Shown here piece by piece: positions 2,535 through 28,998 of a DNA stretch of 28,998 nt. The notes below the pieces were generated by a model. That model had not been told where the DNA came from. It saw only the letters and a program-made list of their open reading frames with translations, and did no database searches. Origin of the DNA: a virus; the IMG/VR virus record IMGVR_UViG_3300030012_000334, positions 1 to 28,998 of that record. The stretch is one strand, 5' to 3'. Both the position numbers and the translations under genes were made by a program. Position 1 is the first letter of the stretch, and each line of letters starts with the position of its first letter.

Positions 2535-2570
2535 AAATCAAATAAATATTAATTAAATCTATTATATAAT
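2534..2570 (+). promoter_or_regulatory. Putative phage late promoter, copy 1
   Basis: AAAATCAAA at 2534-2542, then 15 nt, then TCTATTATATAAT at 2558-2570, directly abutting the ATG of the XkdF-like protease gene at 2571. The same 9-mer at the same spacing is found in copy 2. If the TATAAT-like end is the -10 region, the transcript would be leaderless or nearly so. Confidence 0.55.
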
Positions 2571-3293
2571 ATGCCATGCGAAGAATGTGAAAACGGAAAA
2601 TACAAATGGGGGAAAACAGGAAGCTGTGAGTACGATACTATAGCTCAATGTGAAGCCGCTAATAAAGACTATTACGAAAAGACTACATCTATTGTAGAAT
2701 TGGTTATTGATGATGATAGTCAAGAACTAGCAATTGATGCTATTAGTTTAGTATCTAGTCCTGCTATTGAGCAAGACTTTGTTTACTTTGGTAAAGAGAA
2801 AAACAACTTAACTTTTGCTAAAGTAGATGAAGAAAAAAGAATGCTAGTTAGTCCTGCATTAATACCTAATAAACAAATTTTTAGATACGACCCAAATACA
2901 GACTCAGAGTATTATGTTTATTTTAGTCCTGATACAGTTCGTAAATCATCTGAACTTTATTTAAAACATAACAATCATCATAAAGCAACATACGAACACC
3001 AAGATAGAGTGTCAGGTGTCTTAACAACTGAAAGCTGGATAATTGAAGACCCTAAAATGGATAAGTCAAGACTTTATGGATATAATCTTCCAAAAGGAAC
3101 ATGGATGGTGTCTATGAAAATTAATAATGATGATTTATGGCAGAAAGTAAAAGCAGGAGAGCTTAAGGGGCTATCTATTGAAGGCTACTTTACAGATAAG
3201 ATGGAAAAGATGTCAGAAAGACAACCAACTGATGAAGAGATACTATCAGCTTTAAATGAAATAATACGGGAAAATCAAACAAACTCAAAATAA
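2571..3293 (+). CDS. XkdF-like prohead serine protease
   Basis: A 240-residue protein upstream of scaffold and major capsid protein, the normal place for a prohead protease. The segments LVSPALIPNKQIFR (about 92-105), ESWIIEDPKMD (about 153-163) and GTWMVSMKINNDDLW followed by KGLSIEGYF (about 176-206) match the XkdF-like putative serine protease family. Such enzymes cleave scaffold and the capsid N-terminus during maturation. The His at the HNHHKA segment (about 132-137) and the Ser of GLSIEG are the candidate catalytic residues by family analogy. The N-terminal 35 residues are Cys-rich (CEEC and later Cys) and may be a separate small domain. The C-terminal tail is charged and could be self-cleaved. 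Confidence 0.75.
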   Translation: MPCEECENGKYKWGKTGSCEYDTIAQCEAANKDYYEKTTSIVELVIDDDSQELAIDAISLVSSPAIEQDFVYFGKEKNNLTFAKVDEEKRMLVSPALIPNKQIFRYDPNTDSEYYVYFSPDTVRKSSELYLKHNNHHKATYEHQDRVSGVLTTESWIIEDPKMDKSRLYGYNLPKGTWMVSMKINNDDLWQKVKAGELKGLSIEGYFTDKMEKMSERQPTDEEILSALNEIIRENQTNSK

Positions 3294-3306
3294 TTCTATT
3301 ATATTA
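3271..3306 (+). promoter_or_regulatory. Putative phage late promoter, copy 2
   Basis: AAAATCAAA at 3271-3279 (inside the end of the protease gene), 15 nt, then TCTATTATATTA at 3295-3306. The scaffold ATG follows at 3318, leaving a short A-rich leader. The upstream 9-mer and the spacing are identical to copy 1, the strongest evidence that the motif has two parts. Confidence 0.5.
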
Positions 3307-3317
3307 AAAAAGAAACT

Positions 3318-5671: not shown

Positions 5672-5708
5672 TATACCAAATAAATAATGACTTTTTCTAT
5701 TATATAAT
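5672..5708 (+). promoter_or_regulatory. Putative phage late promoter, copy 3
   Basis: TATACCAAA at 5672-5680, 15 nt, then TCTATTATATAAT at 5696-5708, followed two bases later by the ATG at 5711. It lies directly after a strong terminator, where a new promoter is needed for the following genes to be transcribed. Confidence 0.6.
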
Positions 5709-5710
5709 AT

Positions 5711-12628: not shown

Positions 12629-12659
12629 TTGTGTGAATTAAAAATAATATGTATCTTTG
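12629..12659 (+). promoter_or_regulatory. Bacteroidetes-type promoter P2 (early)
   Basis: TTG at 12629-12631, 20 nt, then TATCTTTG at 12652-12659. The predicted start near 12665 leaves a leader of about 25 nt before the ATG at 12690, with the A-rich AAATAAA leader usual in Flavobacteriia. It is about 50 bases after P1 and in tandem with it. Confidence 0.8.
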
Positions 12660-14231: not shown

Positions 14232-14552
14232 ATGGAAGTAAAAGGAAAATTAGTTAAGATGCTTAAACTTGAAACAGGTGTAAGTAAATCAGGAAAAGAA
14301 TGGAAAAAACAAACAGTTGTAGTAGACAATGGAGAGGAATTTAATAATCTAATAGCAGTAAGTGCTTTTGGTGAAGAAAAAATTAAAGACTTAAATAAAT
14401 TACAAGAGGGAATGACTGTATCTATTCTTTGTAATGTTTATTCAAGAGAATATAAAGGTAAATATTATCACAATATAGATGGGTATTGGTTTACACAAAA
14501 ATCTGATAATGAGGACTTTGTAACTTCAGACTCAGATGAAATGCCATTTTAA
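14232..14552 (+). CDS. SSB-like protein (DUF3127-type)
   Basis: A 106-residue protein that starts MEVKGKLVKMLKLETG and has an OB-fold-like strand pattern (KEWKKQTVVVDNG, NLIAVSAFGEEK, GMTVSILCNVYSREYKGKYY). It ends with an acidic tail DSDEMPF, close to the DD(I/M)PF tip through which single-stranded DNA-binding proteins recruit partners. It resembles DUF3127, an SSB-like family of Bacteroidetes. Next to the annealing protein it should coat single-stranded DNA during replication and recombination. Confidence 0.8.
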   Translation: MEVKGKLVKMLKLETGVSKSGKEWKKQTVVVDNGEEFNNLIAVSAFGEEKIKDLNKLQEGMTVSILCNVYSREYKGKYYHNIDGYWFTQKSDNEDFVTSDSDEMPF

Positions 14553-14553
14553 G

Positions 14554-15063
14554 ATGATACAAGAAGATAATTTTAAAAACTTATGCGACCTTACTACAAG
14601 ATTAGTAGGGCTGCGTAAAGGTTCGCTTGCCTTCAAAAGCAGAAAACAAGAATATCAAATACCAAGAAGTGTAGCTAGTGTAGTTGCTAGAATGATAGAT
14701 GAAACACATAGAACTATAATAGCTAAAGAATTGAAAAGAGATAGAAGTTTAATTTATCACTATGAGAAAATGCACGAGTTTAATTATAGGTCATTTCCTA
14801 AATATAGAGAGGTTTTTAATTTAGTCTATAATGCGTATTCTAGTATTCAGGGTTCTAAAAGGACTTTTTCAGATTCTAGGGAGTTAGAAATATACCTTAG
14901 AGAAAATGGAGTAAGTAATAGTGATAAGTACCAAACTATTATTAAAGTTACTTCAGGAAGAGCTGAATGTAATATTAGACTTTCATATAAAGATTTTTAC
15001 AATCAATTAGAATTATGTAAGTTTGCACTGACAGATTGCAATTACAACTTAGAAATTATTTAA
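14554..15063 (+). CDS. DnaA domain IV-like DNA-binding protein
   Basis: A 169-residue protein from ATG 14554, one base after the SSB-like stop. An in-frame ATG at 14536 lies inside that gene and is less likely. Residues about 45-80 (ARMIDETHRTIIAKELKRDRSLIYHYEKMHE) resemble the helix-turn-helix of DnaA domain IV, where a (K/G)RD(H/R)S-type loop precedes the recognition helix. There is no AAA+ domain. It may bind the phage origin or compete with host DnaA. Its start and position between the SSB-like gene and an initiator-like gene support a replication role. Confidence 0.55.
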   Translation: MIQEDNFKNLCDLTTRLVGLRKGSLAFKSRKQEYQIPRSVASVVARMIDETHRTIIAKELKRDRSLIYHYEKMHEFNYRSFPKYREVFNLVYNAYSSIQGSKRTFSDSRELEIYLRENGVSNSDKYQTIIKVTSGRAECNIRLSYKDFYNQLELCKFALTDCNYNLEII

Positions 15064-17385: not shown

Positions 17386-17393
17386 TAACTTTG
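17386..17393 (+). promoter_or_regulatory. Bacteroidetes-type -7 box TAACTTTG, P3
   Basis: TAACTTTG at 17386-17393 follows an eight-T run after the ninG stop. The predicted transcription start falls at or next to the ATG at 17398, so the transcript would be nearly leaderless. No clear TTG -33 element lies about 20 nt upstream. The promoter would serve the gene at 17398 and the sigma-like gene after it. Confidence 0.55.
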
Positions 17394-17397
17394 GCAT

Positions 17398-17754
17398 ATG
17401 CATAAACCTATTTATTCAAGTGAAGAACACAAATCAATAGTAGATGTTTATGTTTTAATGTGCAAACAATTTGTAGAAGAAGTAACTACTCAAGCAAGAT
17501 ACAAGAATTATTTAGAAGTATTAGACTTAGTTATAGAATACTCAAATAACTATGGCAAAGGAGTTAGAGAAAACAATTTCTATGACTGGATTACTATTAT
17601 ACCAATAAATGTATCAGTTGCTACTAGCGGTTTTTTTGCAGGAGTAGAGACTAAAAGTAACTCAGCAGTAATAAGAGCTTATAAAGTTGTGTTAGACCAA
17701 ATGCTTCAAGAGGTTATTGATAGAATAGATAAACTAGAACCTACTCATGATTGA
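17398..17754 (+). CDS. Hypothetical protein upstream of the sigma-like gene
   Basis: A 118-residue, mostly helical protein that overlaps the sigma-like gene by 8 bases. It has no Cys pair, membrane helix or known motif; the segment YDWITIIPINVSVATSGFFAG (about 61-81) is the most hydrophobic part. Its tight coupling to the sigma-like gene suggests an anti-sigma or partner role, but nothing in the sequence proves it. The ATG is five bases after the P3 -7 box. Confidence 0.6.
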   Translation: MHKPIYSSEEHKSIVDVYVLMCKQFVEEVTTQARYKNYLEVLDLVIEYSNNYGKGVRENNFYDWITIIPINVSVATSGFFAGVETKSNSAVIRAYKVVLDQMLQEVIDRIDKLEPTHD

Positions 17755-18328
17755 TATTTATATTGAAATATCAAAGCTAACAGATAAATTTAGGACAATG
17801 GCTTATGGATTAACAACAGATGAAAATAAAATAAATGAAGCAGTACAGGAGCTGATGCTTTATTTTTTACAAATGAATCCTGAAACGCTTAGGAGTATTT
17901 ATGAAAAAGATGGGATTGATGGAATAACAAGATATGGTGCTGTGGCATTAAGGAGAGCATTAACAAGCACAAGAAGTAATTTTTATTATAAATATGAAAA
18001 GTATTATACACATATTGATAGTTCTGTTTTTAGTTCTAATACAACTGACACTAATGAGTATATTATTCCTGATGGTTTTAATTATAAAGATATTTCAAAT
18101 ATTCCAAACGAAGAAGTAGATAATAACAAGCTAATGAAATTAGAGTTGATAGATAAAGAGTTAGATAAGTTAGATAGTTGGTATGATAGAGAGTTATTTA
18201 AATTATACTATTCAGGAGAAACATTAGACAGTCTAGCTGCTAAGACTAAGATAAGCCGCAACAGTCTTTTTACAACAATAGATAAAGTAAGAACAATAAT
18301 TAAAAAGAATTTAAATGAAGATGTATAA
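17747..18328 (+). CDS. Sigma-70-like RNA polymerase sigma factor
   Basis: A 193-residue protein with the two-domain plan of a small sigma factor. Residues about 15-85 (FRTMAYGLTTDENKINEAVQ, then MLYFLQMNP and YGAVALRRAL) resemble region 2, which binds core polymerase and melts the -10 element. Residues about 137-190 (KELDKLDSWYDRELFKLYYS, then LDSLAAKTKISRNSLFTTID) are a region 4-type helix-turn-helix that would read the -35 element. The linker is long and acidic. The phage has five copies of a non-host promoter motif before late genes, so this protein is the natural candidate for reading them. A non-sigma HTH regulator is the alternative. Confidence 0.65.
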   Translation: MIDIYIEISKLTDKFRTMAYGLTTDENKINEAVQELMLYFLQMNPETLRSIYEKDGIDGITRYGAVALRRALTSTRSNFYYKYEKYYTHIDSSVFSSNTTDTNEYIIPDGFNYKDISNIPNEEVDNNKLMKLELIDKELDKLDSWYDRELFKLYYSGETLDSLAAKTKISRNSLFTTIDKVRTIIKKNLNEDV

Positions 18329-18437
18329 CCCTGTAAAGAATGATAGTTTCGTAATGCAGTTTGGTTTTAGAAGCCCTAACTGGCAACCAAGAACTAAAAA
18401 TACTTATGTAAAAAAAGCAGATAGAAAAAGTGAATAG
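18321..18437 (+). CDS. Small basic hypothetical protein
   Basis: A 38-residue open frame starting inside the end of the sigma-like gene and overlapping the next GTG start. The sequence is Lys/Arg/Asn-rich with MQFGFRSPNWQPRT in the middle and no hydrophobic segment. It exactly fills the gap between two genes, the main argument that it is translated. Confidence 0.5.
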   Translation: MYNPVKNDSFVMQFGFRSPNWQPRTKNTYVKKADRKSE

Positions 18438-18831
18438 ATTTTTTGTGCCTGATGAAGTCTATCAAGACAGGATAGCAATATGTAAAGAGTGTGTTTACTA
18501 TTTTAAACCTACAGGAACTTGTAAGCGGTGCTTATGTTTTATGAAAGTAAAGGCAAGACTAGCACCAATGGCATGCCCTCAGAAGTATTGGGATAAAACA
18601 ACCGAAGTAGAAACACCTGATGACTTGCCGCAAGAAATAATAGATGAAATATTAGATATGTGGAAAGACTTAAAGACGGGTAGAGCAAAAGATGTTCAAG
18701 CTAAAAAAAGAATGATAGAGACATATAATACAATACACAATACTAATTATTCACCTAATACAAATTGTGGTTCGTGTATATCAACTTGTTTTGATGCAAT
18801 TAAAAAACTATATAAAAAATATAGCGAATGA
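18430..18831 (+). CDS. Zinc-ribbon-like protein (DUF6171-like)
   Basis: A 133-residue protein with GTG start. Residues 17-38 contain CKECVYYFKPTGTCKRCLCF, a CxxC...CxxC zinc site, followed by RLAPMACPQKYW. The C-terminal third has a second Cys group (NCGSCISTC, about 115-123). This two-part Cys layout is found in small phage proteins listed as DUF6171-like. It probably binds zinc and possibly nucleic acid or a host protein. Its role in infection is unknown. Confidence 0.6.
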   Translation: MNRFFVPDEVYQDRIAICKECVYYFKPTGTCKRCLCFMKVKARLAPMACPQKYWDKTTEVETPDDLPQEIIDEILDMWKDLKTGRAKDVQAKKRMIETYNTIHNTNYSPNTNCGSCISTCFDAIKKLYKKYSE

Positions 18832-20347: not shown

Positions 20348-21066
20348 TGGAAATAAATAAAATATATAATGAAGATAATTTAGATACAATGTCTAAAATG
20401 GATAATGATTGTATTGATTTAATAATCACCTCACCACCCTATGAAGATGTAAATGGAGCAGGTTATGGTGCAAAAAGTAAAGACATATTATTTCTAAAAT
20501 TTTATTCTGATTATTTAGAAAAATTATTTAATGAGTATGAAAGAATCTTAAAGCCAACAGGACAGATATTTTTCAATATAAAAAGCAAAACATTTAACAA
20601 AAAATTAAGCACTCCTCATTGGATAGAATTTTTAGATAGCTTTAAAAAATTAAAATTCAAAAGCTTTATCATTTGGAAATATGCAGGTAGTTTTGACAGC
20701 ACAAAGAAAAGATTTCATTTAGACTATGAAGTTATTTATCATCTGAGCAAAGGAGATGATATTTATTTAAACGAAGATTGCGGTATTCACGACCCATTAA
20801 GTTCAGTATGGTATGTACCTCACACCATAAAGAGTAGCGAAAGAATCCACCCGACACAAATGCCTGAAGCTTTAGTAGAAAGAATATTAAAAGTAGCTTC
20901 AAAAAAAGATTATCTAGTATATGATAGTTTTATGGGGAGTGGTACTACTGCTATTGTTTGCTTAAAAAATAATATAAATTATATAGGTAGTGAACTCAAT
21001 AAAACTAACTATGATAACTGCAATAAAAGAATTAAAAATTATTTAAGTCAAAACAAATTGTTCTAA
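20347..21066 (+). CDS. DNA methyltransferase, beta class
   Basis: A 239-residue enzyme. Motif IV is TSPPYED (28-34), and motif I is DSFMGSGTT (193-201), the order IV then I of beta-class amino-methyltransferases. HPTQMP (168-173) before motif I is also typical. An SPPY catalytic motif is found in N4-cytosine and some N6-adenine enzymes, so the target base is open. There is no restriction gene nearby, so it is an orphan that could protect phage DNA from host restriction. Length fits a compact enzyme with a small target-recognition region at about 40-160. It is the last gene of the early region. Confidence 0.9.
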   Translation: MEINKIYNEDNLDTMSKMDNDCIDLIITSPPYEDVNGAGYGAKSKDILFLKFYSDYLEKLFNEYERILKPTGQIFFNIKSKTFNKKLSTPHWIEFLDSFKKLKFKSFIIWKYAGSFDSTKKRFHLDYEVIYHLSKGDDIYLNEDCGIHDPLSSVWYVPHTIKSSERIHPTQMPEALVERILKVASKKDYLVYDSFMGSGTTAIVCLKNNINYIGSELNKTNYDNCNKRIKNYLSQNKLF

Positions 21067-21080
21067 TTTCTATTATATTA
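21045..21080 (+). promoter_or_regulatory. Putative phage late promoter, copy 4
   Basis: AAGTCAAA at 21045-21052, 16 nt, then TCTATTATATTA at 21069-21080, after and partly inside the end of the methyltransferase gene. It precedes the terminase genes. The true small-terminase ATG is at 21111, leaving a leader of about 30 nt. The ATG at 21080-21082 opens only a four-codon frame. Confidence 0.5.
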
Positions 21081-21110
21081 TGAGAATTGAATAATCAATC
21101 TTTTTCAATT

Positions 21111-22674: not shown

Positions 22675-22711
22675 AGAGTAAACTAAATTTCAAGAATTTC
22701 TATTATATAAT
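22675..22711 (+). promoter_or_regulatory. Putative phage late promoter, copy 5
   Basis: TCTATTATATAAT at 22699-22711, two bases before the ATG of the tail chaperone gene at 22714. The upstream block is weaker here (AGAGTAAAC at 22675-22683) but at the same 15-nt distance. It opens the tail operon after the terminase genes. Confidence 0.55.
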
Positions 22712-22713
22712 GT

Positions 22714-26464: not shown

Positions 26465-28998
26465 TGAGTGTACAACTGATATTATATCCGCAAAGTTATA
26501 ATGGCTTAAACTCCTTATCAGGAGTAGGTACAGAGCGTATTATTGATGGTATTAATTTTAATACTATTAATAGCTCAACTACTTCTTTATCTTTAGCAGC
26601 ACCAACTTATCAATCAGCAATAAATGCCTTAAACGCTTCAATGGTTGTTAATACATGGTACAGATTTAGCTCTTCAGCTACACCGCCAACAGAATCAAGC
26701 GGAACGGTTGGAATAGTGGCACAACAGGGTATAATACAAAAACTTTCTAATTTAATAATAGGACAAATTTATGATGTAACTATTGAAACAACCGCATCTA
26801 CTCTAACTTTTTATGTTTATTCAGGAACTAACCAACAAAGCTCAACACCTGCAACAGTAGTAGGCACTAATAGTTTACAATTTACTGCAACATCTACTAC
26901 CAATACTATTGTTATTTACTCAACAGGAACAAGTGCAGTAACATCTGTTTCAATAAGACAAGCGGCTCAGAACCCAAGTGGTGCTATACAAGACTTAGCA
27001 ACTGGTCAAGTCATTTGCGACCTTTATGAAGATGAAGATATACCCCTGACTCTAAGTGTTGATGATTTTAAAAATGTAGCTGAACAAGTACAGTCATATT
27101 CTAAGGCATTTAACCTACCTGCAACAAAACGAAATAATCAAATCTTTGATAATATATTTGAAGTAACAAGAGACACTAGCGGACTGGCTTTTAATCCTTA
27201 TGTAAGAACACAATGCGAATTAAAGCAAGATGGGTTTATATTGTTTCAGGGTTATCTTAGACTAATAGACATACAAGAAAAACAGGGTGAAATAAGCTAT
27301 AATGTTAACTTATATTCTGAAGTTATTGCCTTAGCTGACTTTTTAGAAGATAGGACTTTCAATGATATTAGCTTTTTAGAATTACAACATAGTTATAATG
27401 TAACTAATATTACAAATAGTTGGAATGATAGTGGCACAGGAATAAATTATACAACAGCTTCAACTTCAGGATTTAGAACCGATTTTAATACATTAAAATA
27501 CCCATTAGTTGATTGGACGCATAAATTTTATTTAACTGGGAATGATATATTCTTTACAAGCATGGCTGATATTTTTAGACCTTTTATAAATATAAAATAC
27601 TTGATTGATAGAATTTTTAAAGACACTCCTTTTACTTATACAAGTGATTTCATAGATAATGACACAGATTTTCAAAAGTTGTTTATGGATTTTACTTGGG
27701 GTTCAAATGATATACCAAATTATAATAATTTAAACGGAATCTATAGTGCGGCTTCTAGTATTAGCCCTGCTTATTATGCAAACACAAGTTTTACTAATTT
27801 AACAATATATTCAATATACACTAGTATATTTGCTCCAGTACCCTCTGATTATGATACTACCACAAATATATTGACAAATACAACAGCCAATAATCAATAT
27901 CAGATAAATTATACTTATGAAGTAAAAAATACTGATACAGTAAGTAGGAATGTTGAATTTAGAATATTGTCATCTGGTCAGGTTTTTGATTATACTGGTG
28001 TTATTACTCTTGCCGCAAATCAATCATATATATATACAGGGAGTATAGCTCTACCCCCTATGGCTATTGGAGAGACTTTACAGTTGCAATTTAAAGGGAG
28101 TGTTGCAAGTGTAATAAGTCAAATAAATTATAGTGTAACTTGGACATCTTCTCTTTATACTTTTGATGCCATGTTAAACTCTTTAAGGGGGGAATTAGGA
28201 CAATGGGATTTTTTAAAAGGCATTATGACAATGTTTAACTTGGTATCTGTGCCTGACAAGAACAATCCTAATAACATTATTATAGAACCATACAAAAATG
28301 TGTTTTTGTCAAGTGATGATGCGGCAGCTCCTAATTTTTTTGATATTAATTCAACTAAATTAGATTGGACAGATAAAATAGATATTGAAGAAATTAAGCT
28401 AACACCCTTAACAGAATTAAATAAAAAAACAATCTTTAAATTTGTAGAAGATGATGATGATTATGCTTTTAGTGTATATAAAAACTCAGGTCATTTATAC
28501 GGAAGTAATATTTTTGATGCTAGTACAAGCTCTAATAACTTGCCAACAATACTATCAGGAGAAAAAGAAGTAATAGCAGAGCCATTTGCAGCAACAGTAC
28601 CAAAACCTTTAGATGATTTATTTCCTGACTTTATAATTCCAAGCATTTATTCTTATAATGCAGATGATGGTACTTCTGAGGGGTTTGACAGCAGTCCTAG
28701 AATAATGTACAATAACGGAGTGAAAAACATTTCCACTTATGATTATCATGCACCTACTCCTAATGGGTCATCAGCATTTCAAAATGAAAATCAATTTTTA
28801 CAATTTAGTCATTTGACAGATATACCAACAACATCATCAACTACTGATTTTCATTTTGGTATTTGTCAGCTTATACAACCAATAGGCAATCCAACAACTA
28901 ATAATTTATTTAATACTTATTGGCTGCCTTATCTAAATGAGTTATACAATCCTGATACAAGAACAATGACACTTAAAGTAAATTTAACTTCAGGCGAT
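26464..28998 (+). CDS. Tail-tip/baseplate-like protein, N-terminal 845 codons (continues at 1-216)
   Basis: The longest gene of the genome, 883 residues when joined across the circle. It starts in a TAATG overlap with the 464-aa tail gene. The first 170 residues are Ser/Thr-rich beta sheet with an Ig- or CBM-like look. Residues about 185-235 carry the block DLYEDEDIPLTLSVDDFKNV followed by SYSKAFNLPATKRNNQIFDN, which I associate with tail-tip proteins of flavobacterial phages. A further domain near 560-680 has LNSLRGELGQWDFLKGIMTM and later LTPLTELNKKTIFKF. It should form the tail-end hub that carries the fibre encoded at 216. It has no reliable enzyme motif. Confidence 0.7.
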   Translation, partial: MSVQLILYPQSYNGLNSLSGVGTERIIDGINFNTINSSTTSLSLAAPTYQSAINALNASMVVNTWYRFSSSATPPTESSGTVGIVAQQGIIQKLSNLIIGQIYDVTIETTASTLTFYVYSGTNQQSSTPATVVGTNSLQFTATSTTNTIVIYSTGTSAVTSVSIRQAAQNPSGAIQDLATGQVICDLYEDEDIPLTLSVDDFKNVAEQVQSYSKAFNLPATKRNNQIFDNIFEVTRDTSGLAFNPYVRTQCELKQDGFILFQGYLRLIDIQEKQGEISYNVNLYSEVIALADFLEDRTFNDISFLELQHSYNVTNITNSWNDSGTGINYTTASTSGFRTDFNTLKYPLVDWTHKFYLTGNDIFFTSMADIFRPFINIKYLIDRIFKDTPFTYTSDFIDNDTDFQKLFMDFTWGSNDIPNYNNLNGIYSAASSISPAYYANTSFTNLTIYSIYTSIFAPVPSDYDTTTNILTNTTANNQYQINYTYEVKNTDTVSRNVEFRILSSGQVFDYTGVITLAANQSYIYTGSIALPPMAIGETLQLQFKGSVASVISQINYSVTWTSSLYTFDAMLNSLRGELGQWDFLKGIMTMFNLVSVPDKNNPNNIIIEPYKNVFLSSDDAAAPNFFDINSTKLDWTDKIDIEEIKLTPLTELNKKTIFKFVEDDDDYAFSVYKNSGHLYGSNIFDASTSSNNLPTILSGEKEVIAEPFAATVPKPLDDLFPDFIIPSIYSYNADDGTSEGFDSSPRIMYNNGVKNISTYDYHAPTPNGSSAFQNENQFLQFSHLTDIPTTSSTTDFHFGICQLIQPIGNPTTNNLFNTYWLPYLNELYNPDTRTMTLKVNLTSGD
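28900..28998. repeat. 99-bp terminal direct repeat, right copy (assembly circle junction)
   Basis: Identical to bases 1-99. See the left copy for interpretation; dropping one copy gives the circular sequence. Confidence 0.95.

Follow-up and report, generated by a model that had tools for sequence, protein, structure and literature searches.

Late promoters of phage T4 are AT-rich and are served by a phage sigma factor, gp55; these lack a -35 box and depend on the sliding clamp and on gp33. In phage phiEco32 the sigma factor phi32_gp36, which has no recognisable region 4, acts together with a helper, gp79, at the single-element promoter tAATGTAtA (PMC8948821). The closest experimentally proven case to the system described here is SaPh711_gp47, the late sigma factor of Salmonella phage 7-11, whose bipartite promoters GTAAtg-(16)-aCTA were proven in vitro; between 7-11 and phiEco32 the promoter locations are conserved and the sequences differ, and further sigma/promoter pairs have been predicted (PMC8948821). 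Phage late sigma factors of the ECF type are already known from phiEco32 and 7-11, and what is new here is a group of phages carrying one. A literature search, covering few subscription papers, returned no late sigma system for Bacteroidota phages, and an ECF-type late sigma apparently has not been described for them so far.

The window, by which we mean the whole stretch of 28,998 nucleotides that was analysed, is an IMG/VR virus record of 28.9 kb with all genes of substance on the plus strand. Its 99-bp direct terminal repeat (1-99 and 28900-28998) is consistent with a complete phage; among the relatives, G008 and G011 have terminal repeats of the same length (99 bp), and G001 and G009 have repeats of 123 bp. 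The closest cultured relatives are the Nonlabens phages P12024S and P12024L, with a large terminase 63% identical and a putative capsid protein 23% identical, so the host is most likely a marine flavobacterium, to which the Bacteroidota-type promoters of the early region add support; we know of no cultured member of the exact group to which the window phage belongs. A scan of genome contigs returned nothing besides one phage contig of 29000 bp (L143, PBGL02000003.1; sigma 94% identical) in a MAG named Euryarchaeota archaeon, an assignment that is probably a misbinning.

According to our analysis, in which fold, conservation, the motif with its layout and position, co-occurrence and co-divergence were computed directly, it would be logical to suggest, and with considerable confidence, that an early phage sigma factor of ECF architecture redirects the host RNA polymerase to five bipartite late promoters. 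The candidate sigma gene is the following.

17747..18328, plus strand: phage-encoded sigma factor of ECF architecture by prediction, 193 aa (alignment, profile matches, AlphaFold2 and Foldseek).

The earlier note had read this open reading frame, from its pattern, as a protein with a region 2-like N-terminus and a region 4-type HTH. The frame is conserved as a protein, with 366 relatives in a first scan of IMG/VR viral contigs, no stops across a 41-member alignment, and a copy in each of the 28 near-complete family genomes that were examined (minimum identity 47%). Residues 1-90 form the region 2-like part with five helices and residues 126-189 a region 4-like HTH, with nothing but a disordered and variable linker (approximately 91-125, about 35 residues) and no region 3 between them. 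One relative, G029 (L318/L319), has a copy of the sigma gene at each contig end with flanks 70% identical in DNA, which looks like two strains joined in assembly over this end overlap, and we do not count it as a duplication.

The window protein alone is hard to classify: it matches NCBIfam TIGR02937 (sigma70-ECF) weakly, with 19.1 bits and E=8e-4, below the curated cut-off of 42.9, and the PHROG sigma factor family with E=0.012; it matches no Pfam sigma model, region 2 included, and has no relative in a tblastn search over GenBank phages. Sequence searches of Pfam and the PDB, run with the protein alone or with the aligned family, yielded nothing of use, and the mraZ and RAG1 matches among their results are noise. 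It is the family that settles the identity. TIGR02937 matches all 36 members of a broader alignment of relatives (A3), and a relative 63% identical to the window protein (L155) reaches 46.8 bits over residues 9-175, above the cut-off. Sigma70_r4 is matched weakly by 17 of the 41 aligned members, and profile comparison links the family to the sigma2 domain of the P12024S group (E=1.7e-5).

The structure prediction that had been suggested as a check gives both sigma regions. Two AlphaFold2 models consist of a helical N-terminal domain and a C-terminal HTH domain with the disordered linker in between; in the second, built on the broader alignment, mean pLDDT is 77.7 and that of the N-terminal domain about 90-91, and pTM values of 0.41-0.44 leave the relative orientation of the two domains uncertain. 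In Foldseek searches of the PDB with either model the best matches are nearly all sigma factors, mostly ECF, with M. tuberculosis SigL at the top at modest values (E=1e-3 with model one and 3.4e-3 with model two) and structures of RpoE, SigE, SigH and SigW after it. The region 4 domain superposes on sigma4 of 3hug with TMt 0.66 and rmsd 2.7, and the matches of the region 2 domain are ECF sigma factors. Against predicted viral structures many of the named matches are phage sigma factors, with RpoE homologs besides, and among them is the ECF sigma of Cronobacter phage GAP52, which is related to phage 7-11. That the open reading frame encodes a sigma factor is nearly certain.

The protein might instead be a late activator in the manner of ArpU/RinA, with a sigma4-like HTH that would bind the upstream box of the late promoters and aid the holoenzyme of the host sigma. 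Phage activators of the ArpU/RinA type sit upstream of terminase genes, as the sigma gene does here, and many members match PHROG 36 'transcriptional regulator', which covers the C-terminal part, and PHROG 79 'Q-like'. The sigma70-ECF matches, however, are full-length and cover both domains, a sigma2-like N-terminal domain is modelled at a pLDDT of about 90, and the P12024S counterpart passes Pfam Sigma70_r2. The NCBIfam matches of the members are mostly to sigma families, the 25 listed families contain no ArpU model, and the downstream box of the late promoters is not of host type (see below). We regard the activator as improbable.

The late motif, which the earlier note left unprinted, was reconstructed as CTATTATAT at 2559, 3296, 5697, 21070 and 22700. 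Alignment of 107 unique contexts from relatives brought out a second, upstream box, AA(A/C)T(A/G)AAT, separated from the first by a spacer of constant length and little conservation, and the late motif is thus bipartite: AA(A/C)T(A/G)AAT, a spacer of 9 bases, and TTCTATTATATA. The five sites of the window are predicted to be the following late promoters.

2540..2570, plus strand: late promoter 1, AAATAAAT (2540-2547) and CTATTATATAAT (2559-2570), with the ATG of gene 2571 directly after.
3277..3307, plus strand: late promoter 2, AAACAAAC (3277-3284) and CTATTATATTAA (3296-3307), ahead of gene 3318 and of gene 4064, which putatively encodes the major capsid protein.
5678..5710, plus strand: late promoter 3, AAATAAAT (5678-5685) and CTATTATATAATAT (5697-5710), with the ATG of gene 5711 directly after.
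21051..21081, plus strand: late promoter 4, AAACAAAT (21051-21058) and CTATTATATTAT (21070-21081), upstream of the putative small terminase gene (ATG 21111).
22681..22713, plus strand: late promoter 5, AACTAAAT (22681-22688) and CTATTATATAATGT (22700-22713), with the ATG of gene 22714 directly after.

The spacing was tested by a scan of 2.9 million IMG/VR viral contigs with varied spacer length, which returned at least 120 contigs for N9 against 5 for N8, the spacing control with a spacer one base shorter, and 18 for N10. Six contigs with matches to these patterns (L141, L264, L273, L276, L171 and L188) were set aside as chance, there being no window genes in the stretches examined. With a weight matrix, 134 sites were found on the coding strand of 28 related genomes versus 1 on the other strand; 1.5 Mb of simulated sequence contained none, and the reversed-pattern control gave 0-1 matches per genome. 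In most of the 28 genomes the sites stand at five syntenic positions, namely before gene 2571, before gene 3318 with the capsid gene after it, before gene 5711, before the small terminase or its replacement gene, and before gene 22714. The late motif on which the earlier note relied is real, and an upstream box belongs to it. The note's view that the motif is not of host type also holds, as none of the 134 sites contains the host box TAnnTTTG. A point against the reading as sigma promoters is that the distance between the two boxes is slightly shorter than for a textbook -35.

The start codon lies 12 nt or more after the C of CTATTATAT, and the commonest distances are 12 and 14 nt. Many motifs thus abut the ATG at one of two fixed distances, as would also be expected of an RNA or DNA element near start codons, such as a translation enhancer or a processing or packaging site, which would not be a promoter at all. 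We hold such an element to be very improbable, the least likely of the alternatives considered here, because the distance can be as large as 48 nt and at the terminase site measures about 41 nt, because there are two boxes with an unconserved spacer of fixed length, and because the sites number only about five per genome and head gene blocks.

Taken as promoters, the sites have a consequence for the late mRNAs. Transcripts from the sigma promoters of phages 7-11 and phiEco32 start 6-9 nt from the promoter element (PMC8948821), and with start codons 12 nt or more from the motif the late transcripts of the window phage would begin at the ATG or just before it. Several late mRNAs are probably leaderless or nearly so, if the start sites are placed by this analogy; in Flavobacterium psychrophilum only 5.5% of mapped mRNAs are leaderless (PMC9723704).

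The early side is of another type. In Flavobacterium psychrophilum the primary sigma consensus is TAnnTTTG at -12 to -5 (PMC9723704), and the following features belong to the early region.

12629..12659, plus strand: complete promoter of host type, TTG-N20-TATCTTTG, heading the early region.
17386..17393, plus strand: host-type -7 box TAACTTTG (TAnnTTTG), immediately preceding the start codon (ATG) of gene 17398, kept in 24 of 28 genomes.
17398..17754, plus strand: 118-aa protein with no family match, its 3' end overlapping the sigma start by 8 bases, in 28 of 28 genomes.

The claim that the sigma gene is expressed from a host-type promoter holds in kind, at the level of sequence: the pair of gene 17398 and the sigma gene is preceded by the conserved TAnnTTTG box, and no TTG box is found at 17-23 bp from it. 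Within 120 nt upstream of gene 17398 or of the sigma gene there is no late motif. The product of gene 17398, which evolves fast (minimum identity 32% over the 28 genomes), could be a partner or a modulator of the sigma factor. Gene 18430-18831, after the sigma gene, encodes a 133-aa protein with a cysteine-rich, zinc-ribbon-like N-terminus and a sub-threshold match to DUF6171, and is present in 28 of 28 genomes; NinG, 17398, sigma and 18430 move together as a single cluster. Lineage-wide early genes other than the sigma gene include 17398, 18430 and 14536-15063, the last encoding a 175-aa protein with a weak likeness to the DnaA C-terminal HTH (Bac_DnaA_C, E=5e-5; 28 of 28 genomes), possibly an origin-binding protein; their presence counts against the reading preferred here.

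The pairing of the sigma factor with the motif was examined across lineages. Among contigs fetched by the N9 motif alone and tested, every one of the ten between 27 and 33 kb has the sigma gene. Two larger contigs, of 77 and 176 kb, are without it; each has a single site with no family genes nearby, and both were rejected as chance matches. The motif stays unchanged where a relative has a sigma about 50% identical. Shared descent within a single phage lineage would, however, produce co-occurrence of sigma and motif as well. In P12024S/L, where a protein encoded shortly before the terminase genes passes the Pfam Sigma70_r2 cut-off, AAAACAAA and CGTTAATA, with a spacer between them, stand before the late genes, and 12 nt separate them from the start codon as in the window. 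This pair is unannotated in P12024S and P12024L (L326 and L327); in P12024S its copies stand before the genes at 3031, 5412, 23961, 25201 and 26802 and end at or near the ATG, and a variant, CGTTACTA, precedes gene 179. Cross-scans returned no window-type sites in the P12024S/L group and two marginal P12024-type sites in the 28 genomes. In a third group, with a sigma 23-30% identical (hmmsearch E=4e-8), ATTATATAG or (A/T)CGTTATA stands before the corresponding genes, as judged by inspection and 8-mer counts. It was an accidental N10 match within a gene that brought in one member of this group (L278). A large further group of sigma factors (L337-L403), 42-100% identical to that of L278, has its own late motifs, and several of its members have CGTTATA directly before start codons.

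A genuine phage sigma could still leave the motifs to another reader, either an alternative (ECF) sigma of the host or a phage regulator such as the DnaA_C-like product of 14536-15063. Gene 14536 is, like the sigma gene, present in 28 of 28 genomes, and Bacteroidota hosts hold several ECF sigmas, seven in F. psychrophilum (PMC9723704). In separate lineages, however, a different phage sigma goes with a different motif, the two-box layout suits a sigma that has both region 2 and region 4, and the 14536 protein is the more variable one (minimum identity 28% vs 47% for the sigma) although the motif is nearly invariant. A reader of this kind seems to us about as improbable as the activator. Co-occurrence in genomes, the two boxes expected of a region 2/4 sigma, and a different motif with a different sigma together support the phage sigma as the very probable reader of the late motif, which the earlier note had only proposed.

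The following order of events can be suggested, in which we infer RNA polymerase binding, promoter recognition, timing and the sites of transcription start. The host RNA polymerase would read the early region, the sigma gene included, from host-type promoters. The phage sigma, built of sigma2 and sigma4 with no sigma3, would then compete for the host core, join it and direct it to the five phage-specific bipartite promoters, where region 4 would recognise the upstream box AA(A/C)T(A/G)AAT and region 2 would recognise and melt the downstream box TTTCTATTATATA. These promoters would drive the packaging, capsid and tail operons, with transcripts beginning at the ATG or within a few bases of it.

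We also lean, with less confidence, towards a wider proposal, that marine Bacteroidota phages may possess a homologous series of sigma factors whose late promoters have co-diverged at fixed positions (CTATTATAT, CGTTAATA, CGTTATAT, ATTATATAG), with late transcription largely leaderless. If it is true, the series would be a ready system for reading the sigma-promoter recognition code. Sigma and promoter change together from one lineage to the next, which makes the residues that set specificity directly testable; the cultured P12024S/L can serve as an entry point for such work, and the pairs could find use as orthogonal expression tools in Bacteroidota. The window sigma with its predicted promoters would provide an early-to-late switch for abundant uncultured small marine Bacteroidota phages, for which no late regulator was found in the searched literature. 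The near-leaderless placement of the late promoters and the natural series of co-diverged pairs deserve particular attention.

Compared with known systems, the window sigma resembles gp33/gp35 of P12024S/P12024L (Inhavirus; NC_018271, NC_018272), likewise encoded shortly before the terminase genes in phages with a similar large terminase and with the same late motif layout and start-codon distance; unlike the window sigma, to which they are 15-19% identical, these proteins go with the boxes AAAACAAA and CGTTAATA, and in the records they are annotated only as Sigma-70 region 2-containing, with no promoter annotated. With T4 gp55 it would share the service of AT-rich late promoters; in contrast to T4, the window phage family keeps two boxes. 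Like phi32_gp36, the window protein is predicted to redirect the host RNA polymerase to a handful of phage promoters, which in phiEco32 are middle and late ones, but it has a predicted region 4 and two-box promoters. With SaPh711_gp47 it shares region 4 and bipartite promoters upstream of late genes, and with phage 7-11 the two-class scheme in which early genes use host promoters. The consensus is unrelated, 7-11 is an enterobacterial podophage, and its system is proven in vitro whereas ours is predicted. The window case fits the expectation of more sigma/promoter pairs (PMC8948821), in phages of a different bacterial phylum.
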